64,000 nucleotides of DNA from Thiomicrorhabdus cannonii. Lineage in GTDB: Bacteria; Pseudomonadota; Gammaproteobacteria; Thiomicrospirales; Thiomicrospiraceae. The notes under the pieces were generated by a model that was not told the DNA's origin, did not search any database, and worked only from the letters and a program-made list of their open reading frames with translations. Made by a program: the position numbers and the translations under genes. Numbering within the stretch: the first letter of the stretch is position 1; every line of letters begins with the position of its first letter. Location: the NCBI RefSeq assembly GCF_013391695.1, contig NZ_JACBGH010000012.1:1-64000 (forward strand). Direction: 5' to 3'. Shown here piece by piece: positions 39,265 to 60,297 of the stretch.

Positions 39265-39389
39265 CACCTAAGATGCAAACACCGCTAAAATTAGGCGGAT
39301 GCGGGACAGTTTGTATAAAATAAGCGTGTTTTAATCTTCATTTTGCAACCTTGGATGCGAATCGTTCACCCAACAGAGAACTTTCGAGC

Positions 39390-39737
39390 ATGACCAACGC
39401 CGAACTCCATCAACGCGCCAAACACCGCGTGACACTCAAACGTCCGGTTGAACTGCTGATCAACAACGATGAAATAGTGCATGGAACGCTATTAAACCTG
39501 TCGATACTCGGTGCCGGCGTCCTGTTAGACCGCGCCCTGCAGCCGCTGCAGCGGCTTAGCATGAAGTTTTCACTGCCCGCCTACGACGATGACATCGAGC
39601 TGGTCATAGACGCTCAAACCACACACGTGACCTCGTCCGGCGCGGGCTTTCTGACTGGCATAGAGTTTTCGTTACTGAGCCCTCACCAGAGTCTGGTCAT
39701 CGGACACTATGCCAATAGCAGCGAATCGGCAGAATAA
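39390..39737 (+). CDS. PilZ-domain protein (first of a pair)
   Basis: The 115-residue protein is a lone PilZ fold. An amino-terminal arginine cluster (KHRVTLKR) and NLSILGAG, the (D/N)xSxxG motif, would bind cyclic di-GMP. I chose the ATG at 39390; the frame extends to a TTG at 39351. It lies 2 bases ahead of a second PilZ gene. The spacing of the arginines is not canonical, so binding should be tested. Confidence 0.82.
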   Translation: MTNAELHQRAKHRVTLKRPVELLINNDEIVHGTLLNLSILGAGVLLDRALQPLQRLSMKFSLPAYDDDIELVIDAQTTHVTSSGAGFLTGIEFSLLSPHQSLVIGHYANSSESAE

Positions 39738-39739
39738 TC

Positions 39740-40099
39740 ATGGACACTGCAATCCAACTTGATAGCCGTGTTAAAACCAGCCGCAAAGTGATTGTCCACG
39801 GCCGCAACGGCCAGGCCGAAGGGGAACTGGTCGACCTGTCACTCAAAGGCGTTGGTGTCATTGTGAACCGCGGCGCACGTGAAGGCACCGAGCTGGAAGC
39901 GGAGTTTGAACTGCCGGCACTGGGCACTTTCCGCGTGTTTCATTTACTGGGCAAAGTCACCCATCGCCACAATACCGGCGACCAGGTCTATCTGACGATT
40001 GCATTCAACAAACTCAACGATGAAGATCAGGCCGCACTGGAAGATTTTATTAATTACAAAAACCGGCTAAGCCGACTGAATAAAAAAGAGTTCTCCTAA
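39740..40099 (+). CDS. PilZ-domain protein (second of a pair)
   Basis: The 119-residue protein has SRVKTSRK and DLSLKGVGV, the cyclic di-GMP motifs, and a helical tail rich in Lys and Arg. It begins 2 bases after the first PilZ gene and shares its fold but little identity, so the pair is probably old and co-expressed. A target is unknown; motility or pilus control is a reasonable guess given motAB and the chemoreceptor nearby. Confidence 0.85.
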   Translation: MDTAIQLDSRVKTSRKVIVHGRNGQAEGELVDLSLKGVGVIVNRGAREGTELEAEFELPALGTFRVFHLLGKVTHRHNTGDQVYLTIAFNKLNDEDQAALEDFINYKNRLSRLNKKEFS

Positions 40100-55147: not shown

Positions 55148-56191
55148 TCAGGGCAGCAAAGCCACCTGACGCAAGCCGGCGGTTTCATCCAGATTGAACA
55201 GAATGTTCATGTTCTGCACCGCCTGACCGGCCGCCCCTTTGACGAGGTTGTCGATAACCGAAGTGACCACCACGGTATCGCTGCCCTGCGGACGGTACAC
55301 CGCCATGCGGCACATGTTCGAGCCTTTAACCATACGCGTTTCCGGCAAGCTGCCAGACGGCATCACATCCACAAAATACTCGTCGGCATAGGCTGCTTCG
55401 TAAATCGCCTGCAATTCGGTCTGGCTCAGATCTTTTTTCAGTCTGGCGTAAATGCTGGATTCCATGCCGCGAATCATCGGCACCAGATGCGGTACAAATG
55501 TCAATCCCACCTTCTGACCGCTCAACTCACTCAACTTGTCGACCATCTCCGGCAGGTGACGGTGTCCGCCGACGCCATACGCCTTGAAACTTTCGCTCAT
55601 TTCGGCACCCAGCATCGCCACGCTGGCGCCACGGCCAGCACCGCTGACGCCGGACTTACCGTCGGCGATAATGCCATCCAGCTCGATTGCACCGGCCTTC
55701 ACCAGCGGCATAATGCCTAACAGGATACTGGTCGGGTAGCAGCCCGGATTGGCGATGATACTGGCCTGTTGAATTTTATCGCGATAGAGTTCCGGCATGC
55801 CGTAAGCCACCTTATCCATCAGATGAGCGCAGGTATGCTCATGCTTGTACCACTGCGTCCACACATCCAGATCATTGATGCGGAAATCGGCCGCCAGGTC
55901 AATCACCTTGACACCCGCCCCCACCAGCTCCTCGGCCATGCTCATGGCTACGCCGTGCGGCGTGGCAAAGAACACCACATCGCACCCCTTAAGCACATCC
56001 GGGCTCGGCTCGGTAAACGCCAAATCATAGTGTCCGCGCAGATTGGGGAACATATCGGCGACCTTGACGCCCGCTTCACTGCGCGAGGTAATCGCAACCA
56101 CCTCCGTCTGGGGATGCGCTGCCAGCAATCTCAATAGTTCCACGCCGGTATAACCTGTTCCGCCGACAATTCCCACCCGAACTTTTTCCAT
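55148..56191 (-). CDS. argC: N-acetyl-gamma-glutamyl-phosphate reductase
   Basis: ArgC is the third step of arginine synthesis. [17 protein letters not shown] binds NADP; the catalytic Cys151 is in [12 protein letters not shown] chose the ATG at 56191, preceded by GGAAGAG, over 56218. 347 residues. Confidence 0.96.
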
Positions 56192-56450
56192 GATACTCTT
56201 CCGTTTTTCGTTCAACACAATGCCATTATTTTAACGAAATAATTACCCGTACAGCCAACTTTATTGTTTTGAAATACAACATAAAAAGCGCCTTGTCCGC
56301 GCGTCAAATCCTTACCCAAATCGCCACCCAAATCGCCACCTGGCGCAACCCGATAAAAATTTGTTTATAAAGCAATAAGTTAAAAAAATCCGTTGTGATT
56401 TGCACCCGTCCGCTCAGGAGTGCTAATATCGCCCTCCAATCCCTGTCTCA

Positions 56451-58532
56451 TTGAAAAGAGACCCTGACCCTTTAAGCAAACCGGAAATCCACGTGCAGCT
56501 ACAACCGCCCTCTATTACCTGCAAACTCAGCAACAGGCTCTACCTGCCGATTATCGTCGTGCTGCTGCTTGGGCTTGCCATCATGGTGCTCAGCACCTTT
56601 TGGGCAATCCAAAAACTGACCCTGGAAAAACACAAGGAAGTGCGCCAAACCTATCAGAACTATGTGCAAAAGACCCTCAATGGCCAGCATCAAATCGTCT
56701 TGACCAACGTTATCGCGCTCTCCAACAACCCCGGCCTGCAAAAAGCGCTGGCTGAACGCAACCGCGCATCAGCCCAACAGTTATTGGACGACGTACTCAA
56801 GCAATACAAAAAGTTCAGCGGTTTTAAAAACGTCAAAATCCACCTGCACACCGCCGACTTCAAAAGCTTTTTGCGCAGCTGGAAACCGGAACAATACGGC
56901 GACAATCTCAGCCCTTTCCGCCACTCGCTGCATCATCTGGCCCTGACCCAAACGCCTTTCGCCAGCGTTGAACTCGGGCGCGAAGGGATTCTGCTACGCG
57001 GCTTCGCACTGATGAAATATGAAGGGCGCATTGTCGGCTCCATCGAATTCATCCAGAGTTTTGAGGAGGTCATTCAGGAACTCAACCAACAGTACAATCT
57101 GCAGGCCCTGATTCTCAGCAGCCATGACAAAACCATCGACTACTTCCATACCTTGACGCTCGTAGGCACCAACCGCGTGCTCCTCAATTCGCGGCCGCAC
57201 AACAATCAGCCGCTGATTCAGGCGCTGGCCAATTACGACTTCGACCAGCTGGAAAAAGACCAGCAAATCATCCGTCCGCCCTATTACTTCACCTCGGTCC
57301 CCCTGTACGATTTCAAAAACGACAAGGTCGGCTGTTTTCTCGTCGCCGACAACCTCACGCACGTCAACAGCCTGATTGACAGCACCCGCTCAGCCCTCTA
57401 CTGGCAGATCGCCAGCCTGGCACTGGTCGACCTCTTGATTATCGGCCTCTTGATTATTCTATTGCGCCAGCGTGTGATCCGCCCCCTGAGCCAGCTGCGC
57501 GCGCAATTAGCCTCCATCAATCCATTTTTCGGCGACGCCGATAAACTGCGTGAAATCCTCCCCCTGCGAACCAACCACAAGGACGAGTTCGGGGCTTTGA
57601 CACACTGCTTGAACCTGTTTTTTCAGCGCACCTGCGAAACCTTCAGCGAACTGACACTCGCCCGCAAACTGCACCAGGAAACGCTGCAAAACGTCATGCA
57701 GCCCAGCGCCAGACTAACAACGGACGGCCAGGGCAAGATACACTCCGTGAGCGCCGACTTTTTAAAACTGATACACGCTACCGACGACACCCTCAGCGGA
57801 CAAACGTTTAATCACTGTCTGCATCCCCAGATTCCGCGTGTACTTGTCAGAAAAATGCAGCGCGCCATATCACAGGGCGAAGTGTGGCAAGGCATCCTAA
57901 AACTCGCTGCCGCCGATGGCAGAACGCTTTATACGCGCACCACCGTGGTACCCGACTGCCTACCCGAACAGCACAGCCTGTTTCTGTTTGAAAACGTAAC
58001 CGATTTAGTGACCCACCATGAGCCTCTTCTAAACAGCTTCCGCACCCACCCGGCCAGCCTCCTCGGCGACCACGACAAACTCGAATACGACTACCGCCAC
58101 ACGCAGCAGGCCTATCTGGCGAAACTGTCGGTCGACGTTCAGGCCGAAACAGACGCTCAACAGCACACGCCGCCAGAACTCATCCAGCAGATGACGCACT
58201 ACTTGCTGGATAGCTTTGAAGACACGGACTACACCCTCTACCAGCTCAACCAGCAGGAATTCGCCGTTTTGGCCAACGCCCTGCTCACCCCGCAAAAAAC
58301 CTTTATTGAACAGATGGAACACTTTCTGATGGCGCACAACCATACCGCCATCCAGACAGAAAACCCGCAAGACAAGCCAATCGCCACCTTGAAATTGAGC
58401 ATTGGCGTTTCAACCCAGCACTACGGCTTATTGGAGCAGGCCCACAAGGCGCTGCAACAGGCACAGCAGACCACCTTGCCGCATGTGGTGGTGATGCCGC
58501 CTTTAACCGATTTGCAGCGGCTTTACCGCTAA
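56451..58532 (+). CDS. Membrane sensor with Cache-like, PAS-like and degenerate GGDEF domains
   Basis: The 693-residue protein has a membrane helix at about 31-54, a large periplasmic Cache-like domain, a second helix at about 323-345, a HAMP-like linker, a PAS-like region (about 416-520), and a GGDEF-like fold. The GGDEF signature is replaced by NQQEF at 600-604, so cyclase activity is not expected; LSIGVSTQHYGLLEQAHKALQQAQ is the conserved later part. The start is uncertain: TTG at 56451 or GTG at 56493, which has GGAA upstream. A nucleotide-binding or partner-binding sensor is likely. Confidence 0.78.
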   Translation: MKRDPDPLSKPEIHVQLQPPSITCKLSNRLYLPIIVVLLLGLAIMVLSTFWAIQKLTLEKHKEVRQTYQNYVQKTLNGQHQIVLTNVIALSNNPGLQKALAERNRASAQQLLDDVLKQYKKFSGFKNVKIHLHTADFKSFLRSWKPEQYGDNLSPFRHSLHHLALTQTPFASVELGREGILLRGFALMKYEGRIVGSIEFIQSFEEVIQELNQQYNLQALILSSHDKTIDYFHTLTLVGTNRVLLNSRPHNNQPLIQALANYDFDQLEKDQQIIRPPYYFTSVPLYDFKNDKVGCFLVADNLTHVNSLIDSTRSALYWQIASLALVDLLIIGLLIILLRQRVIRPLSQLRAQLASINPFFGDADKLREILPLRTNHKDEFGALTHCLNLFFQRTCETFSELTLARKLHQETLQNVMQPSARLTTDGQGKIHSVSADFLKLIHATDDTLSGQTFNHCLHPQIPRVLVRKMQRAISQGEVWQGILKLAAADGRTLYTRTTVVPDCLPEQHSLFLFENVTDLVTHHEPLLNSFRTHPASLLGDHDKLEYDYRHTQQAYLAKLSVDVQAETDAQQHTPPELIQQMTHYLLDSFEDTDYTLYQLNQQEFAVLANALLTPQKTFIEQMEHFLMAHNHTAIQTENPQDKPIATLKLSIGVSTQHYGLLEQAHKALQQAQQTTLPHVVVMPPLTDLQRLYR

Positions 58533-58562
58533 AAACACGCAACTCGGCTGCCCAAAAAACTC

Positions 58563-58574
58563 AACAGGCCGGGT
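58563..58574 (+). repeat. DUS-like 12-mer, copy 17
   Basis: Exact AACAGGCCGGGT with flank AAAAAACTC, between the sensor gene and the groEL terminator. Confidence 0.85.
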
Positions 58575-58603
58575 ACTCCTGAACCGGCCGCGTCCAAAAA
58601 CAA

Positions 58604-58630
58604 AAAAAGCCCGCATAATGCGGGCTTTTT
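58604..58630. terminator. Bidirectional terminator of groEL and the sensor gene
   Basis: AAAAAGCCCGCA and TGCGGGCTTTTT arms, 12 bp, with a three-base loop; it lies between convergent stops at 58532 and 58657. Confidence 0.9.
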
Positions 58631-58656
58631 GATTCACAGCTGTGTGATGTTCGGAA

Positions 58657-60297
<1,641 letters not shown>

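Follow-up and report, generated by a model that had tools for sequence, protein, structure and literature searches.

What a GGDEF domain does after losing its active site, and how such a domain comes to stand alone, are the questions raised by the gene at 56451-58532 (+ strand) of the window, the whole 64,000-nucleotide stretch of Thiomicrorhabdus cannonii DNA analyzed here. Degenerate GGDEF domains are common, though in most cases it is unclear where they come from and what they do, and this locus offers a lone dead GGDEF domain that is directly testable. On the evidence of its reading frame, Pfam matches and relatives, the gene encodes a membrane sensor followed by a PAS domain and a dead GGDEF-like domain, with no EAL domain; our literature search found no paper on it. 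We consider it rather probable that the protein is a former cyclic-di-GMP phosphodiesterase that became a sensor without catalysis and works through dimerisation or docking.

The reading frame is open throughout and specifies 693 amino acids counted from its TTG, with no stop or frameshift in the translation of these codons. As the relatives begin near residue 15, the GTG at 56493 is the likelier start, and the first 14 residues may never be made. The encoded architecture is TM-dCache_3-TM-HAMP-like-PAS-GGDEF-like. The original prediction had spoken of Cache-like and PAS-like parts, and Pfam recovered both: dCache_3 (PF14827) at residues 66-303 (56646-57359; E 1.5e-26, 93.9 bits against a cut-off of 25.7), and PAS and PAS_4 at about residues 418-511 (57702-57983; E 8.5e-05 and 1.4e-05). 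Hydropathy places transmembrane segments on either side of the sensor, at about residues 26-56 (56526-56618) and 314-346 (57390-57488). A HAMP-like linker at about residues 341-410 (57471-57680) was delineated by alignment with relatives; a Pfam HAMP match, at 16.8 bits and below the cut-off, was seen only in the relative from genome G027. The GGDEF-like domain, at about residues 526-680 (58026-58490) by alignment and model, scores only 15.3 bits against Pfam GGDEF (PF00990, residues 576-674), below the cut-off of 23.8. A promoter scan found no promoter on the + strand for this gene.

Structure prediction is consistent with these assignments. The sensor half was modeled with a mean pLDDT of 87.9 and has a double Cache fold in addition to its profile match above the cut-off. 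The same fold is seen in the periplasmic sensor domains of CitA (2j80; Z 14.1, rmsd 1.7, 123 residues, 19% identity) and DctB (3by9; Z 14.4, rmsd 4.4, 216 residues, 13% identity). This being a likeness of fold only, we assign no ligand from it; a weak profile match to CitA (E 0.3) includes an LRG stretch of the sensor. The AlphaFold2 model of residues 401-693, built from 23 PAS-GGDEF sequences, has a mean pLDDT of 86.8. Its PAS half superimposes on MmoS (3ewk; Z 17.5, rmsd 1.4, 105 residues) and its GGDEF-like half (model positions 129-291) on PleD (2wb4; Z 17.3, rmsd 2.8, 156 residues). A GGDEF fold is thus predicted in the carboxy-terminal region, as originally supposed, though the underlying alignment includes true GGDEF proteins and favors this outcome. 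When the C-terminal model as a whole was compared with solved structures by Foldseek, RbdA PAS-GGDEF-EAL (5xgb) ranked first.

Within this predicted fold the site is degenerate. The loop at residues 600-604 (about 58248-58262) reads NQQEF in place of GGDEF, as first noticed. Aligning 23 PAS-GGDEF stretches, we defined 28 consensus columns, each common to 17 or more of the other 22 rows and running from the end of the PAS domain onward (two still lie within it); the window protein keeps 9 of them, as against 25 in each of its three full-length relatives, described below. The consensus D-x-L-T-x-x-x-N-R reads H-x-A-S-x-x-x-D-H, which bears out the reported absence of an LTGLPNR-type motif. Along with this DxLTxLxNR motif, the protein has lost the metal-site Asp, F, K and N from FKxxND, both residues of the GD in GHxxGD, the second loop Gly and the Arg that precedes the loop. 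E603, F604, the D of ND and, as the original prediction held, SIG(VS) and the last helix are retained. The RxxD of the I-site is absent: DTDY precedes TLYQLNQQEF, so that D and Y occupy the R and D positions; in the same alignment it is missing from the G027 protein too. The metal-site, GTP-site and I-site roles, and likewise the I-site spacing, are ones that we presume for the aligned residues.

The protein therefore has neither the GG(D/E)EF loop with GTP- and metal-site residues that marks a diguanylate cyclase nor the RxxD upstream of the loop that marks an I-site receptor, and judging by these residues its synthesis of cyclic di-GMP is most unlikely. It might be argued that it is an active cyclase with an odd loop, like VCA0965 with AGDEF, the first loop residue being described as flexible in some cyclases (PMC3974145); however, here several motifs rather than a single residue are lost, and the chance of activity seems negligible. 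The protein could instead be a receptor like CdgI or PopA, signaling through cyclic di-GMP or GTP that its dead GGDEF domain would still bind. Several degenerate GGDEF proteins are reported to do so (PMC3974145, PMC5635695), but for a domain without the RxxD I-site, the GTP-site Asp, Lys and Asn and the second loop Gly this is quite improbable. Nucleotide binding, which had been proposed along with dimerisation, finds no support either, since FKxxND has lost its Lys and Asn and GHxxGD its Asp, and the metal-site Asp, the RxxD and the second loop Gly are changed as well. The dimerisation idea is plausible, and so is the broader picture confirmed of a Cache/PAS sensor whose GGDEF fold very probably makes no cyclic di-GMP.

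The relatives point to what the protein once was. Among 62 genomes of the order, near-full-length matches were found in only three others, G027 from the same genus and G063 and G064 from another; G004 carries a fragment, and the other matches listed are mainly to the sensor alone or to the PAS-GGDEF part alone. A search of an even sample of the class, 369 genomes in all, yielded no full-length relatives beyond these, and a wider contig scan yielded only a dCache match, in one Arcobacteraceae MAG. The G027, G063 and G064 proteins (922, 923 and 920 amino acids) all have a QGDEF loop and an EAL domain that is complete, including the E-x-L-x-R and DDFGTGYS motifs. NQQEF is hence not a family trait, a point on which the original prediction had called for a check; the G004 fragment begins downstream of the loop. 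The window protein is 39% identical to that of G027 over 660 columns, and an EAL domain is absent both from its gene and from the 124 bases up to groEL. Relocation of the EAL domain was considered and rejected, as no split gene was found: in the window genome (G000), the EAL domains most similar to the G027 one match it at 47% and 43% identity and sit in their own frames of 707 and 933 amino acids.

In the PAS/GGDEF tree the window row falls in a set of eight with 100/100 support, the other seven all coming from reading frames with an EAL domain. Its branch is very long (3.78) and its composition odd; its grouping with the G027, G063 and G064 rows is unsupported (67/17), and a placement as sister to G027 is neither rejected nor demonstrated (p-AU 0.136). 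Identity to G027 is 51% in the dCache domain and drops sharply to 24-28% beyond it. Such a drop, with an unsupported tree position, could mean that recombination joined the dCache sensor to another, already degenerate PAS-GGDEF piece. Yet when 32 genomes of the genus were searched with the PAS-GGDEF part, the top non-self match came from the same locus, namely the gene of G027 (E 2.1e-24), followed by the G004 fragment (4.9e-17) and then by a match at 1.7e-11; since the sister placement is also not rejected, we regard such a swap as very unlikely.

The gene neighborhood is conserved as well. The order anmK, citrate synthase-like, Fe-S protein, argC, the gene under study, groEL and proB-like is the same in the window and in G027, with argC (55148-56218, - strand) as the left border common to G027 and groEL (58657-60285, - strand) as the right border common to G027 and G004; these borders rest on reading frames and locus comparison, and we take the names argC and groEL, like several others at the locus, from protein sequence. 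In G027 a GST-like gene follows the sensor gene and precedes groEL, whereas in the window groEL comes 124 bases after it; this gap (58533-58656) shows on inspection no EAL or GST-like trace, and neither G000 nor G004 contains any match to the GST-like gene. We compared 20 argC-groEL intervals from other genomes of the genus in which the two genes are close and more than a few hundred bases apart, omitting G012, G017, G022 and G029, which have nearly no interval, and G002, G004, G006, G007, G019 and G023, where contigs are split, a gene is lacking or the genes lie far apart. A GST-like gene lies between argC and groEL in 17 of the 20 (18 of 21 with G027), and no copy of the studied gene is found among their listed reading frames. 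These intervals (L181-L200) are a variable slot in the genus, in which a GST-like gene, MsrP/MsrQ-like frames and GGDEF-tailed sensor frames, all identified by eye, are variously present or absent.

The same shortened gene end adjoins groEL in G004, which makes an assembly error unlikely. As the EAL domain and the GST-like gene are both missing here and are adjacent in G027, the simplest course would be a single deletion removing both in the common ancestor of G000 and G004, the lineage in which the EAL domain would have been lost. The final RLY (58521-58532) aligns in one alignment with an RLY inside the EAL domain of the relatives, a possible in-frame deletion scar; three residues (RLYR against RLYS, RLYP and RLYT) are too few, and we dropped the idea. 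An inverted repeat flanked by T runs (58604-58630, assigned by the scan to the - strand) is a possible terminator for both this gene and groEL.

The domains of the protein have changed at unequal rates. Branch lengths for window against G027, with G063/G064 as outgroup, are 0.38 against 0.42 for dCache, which is thus not accelerated, 1.98 against 0.36 for PAS and 1.95 against 0.43 for the GGDEF-like domain, the latter two being about 5 times faster in the window; the HAMP-like linker gives 1.52 against 0.12, over only 70 columns. The sensor was held while the output part changed fast. The main rival to our reading is a gene in decay, left without output after the loss of EAL and with its frame persisting for now. 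The acceleration of the PAS and GGDEF-like parts, the loss of 19 of the 28 consensus columns and the patchy occurrence of near-full-length relatives all accord with decay, but the unaccelerated dCache part, 693 codons free of stops and frameshifts and a GGDEF fold predicted with high confidence do not. The G004 contig starts inside the gene, limiting the comparison to the last 41 codons and the identical stop, and over these there are 10 synonymous changes in 28.7 sites and 6 nonsynonymous in 94.3 (dN/dS 0.14; Fisher p 0.0004); the adjoining groEL gives dN 0.004 and dS 0.38. With this low ratio and the shared stop, the shortened end appears to be kept by selection, and we hold decay to be unlikely.

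The architecture, the absence of EAL, the conserved locus, the lost active site, the selection over 41 codons and the faster cytoplasmic half are all computed; origin from an EAL-bearing ancestor is well supported, and the present mechanism we infer. The EAL motifs of the relatives suggest an ancestor of the form dCache_3-HAMP-PAS-GGDEF-EAL, presumably a cyclic-di-GMP phosphodiesterase, whose GGDEF loop would already have been off-consensus (QGDEF). The protein that remained ends cleanly after the GGDEF fold and should neither make nor break cyclic di-GMP. A conserved sensor joined to a GGDEF fold without a recognizable catalytic or nucleotide site most likely serves, by analogy with the systems discussed below, for docking or pairing: the periplasmic domain, which may sense a carboxylate, would alter the pairing of the dead PAS-GGDEF module with itself, with GGDEF or EAL proteins or with others, and these partners might be tuned or placed without catalysis. 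A more specific version, in which one deletion of the enzyme and the next gene left a stable receptor of the same periplasmic signal whose sole effect on the cyclic-di-GMP network is to pair with, and so antagonize, PAS-GGDEF-EAL phosphodiesterases of the kind it descends from, is doubtful. The locus presents before and after states at one place in related genomes, the sensor unchanged and the enzyme lost. New here is that EAL has disappeared from a conserved locus while what is left shows selection; the protein is an uncommon though readily understood variant of a well-known kind.

Several known systems bear comparison. RbdA (PA0861), a PAS-GGDEF-EAL phosphodiesterase of Pseudomonas aeruginosa, has the same PAS-GGDEF order and reported GTP-linked control of its EAL domain (PMC10874727), but its GGDEF is intact and its EAL active, and the window protein has neither. 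For CdgI and PdeK of E. coli, two-hybrid assays are reported to show their degenerate GGDEF domains pairing with other GGDEF domains, and action through GGDEF-GGDEF contacts was proposed for CdgI (PMC5635695). CdgI resembles the window protein in its sensor-type N-terminus and lone degenerate GGDEF without EAL; however, it keeps the I-site and binds cyclic di-GMP, whereas the window protein lacks the I-site and owes its origin to the loss of EAL. In PdeB of Shewanella putrefaciens, the inactive GGDEF is reported to dock on HubP (PMC9061725), and a similar docking face may be proposed by analogy here, although PdeB, unlike the window protein, retains GTP-binding residues and its EAL enzyme.

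Possible partners are numerous in G000, with 56 GGDEF and 32 EAL matches, and its PAS-GGDEF-EAL proteins of the same clade include one at C1:446214 with a FIST sensor. This FIST-PAS-GGDEF-EAL paralogue (L210:560-3358; C1:444500-448500) has the loop YGDRF, again a degenerate GGDEF, together with a complete EAL domain, and is a possible partner. Other PAS-GGDEF-EAL proteins of the genus (L212, L213 and L041) have SGDAF, SGDEF and HADQF, and going by such loops the GGDEF of this group seems generally released from catalysis.

The two PilZ genes mentioned in the original prediction are present, adjacent, small and just after a SelO gene (39351-39737 and 39740-40099). They lie 16 kb from the sensor gene, and several other sites in the genome carry PilZ genes as well; we therefore dropped the idea of a link. 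As the genome has 9 PilZ matches (8 over the cut-off) besides its many GGDEF and EAL matches, their presence says nothing special. A group of three further PilZ matches occurs at G000:C3:28098-29442.
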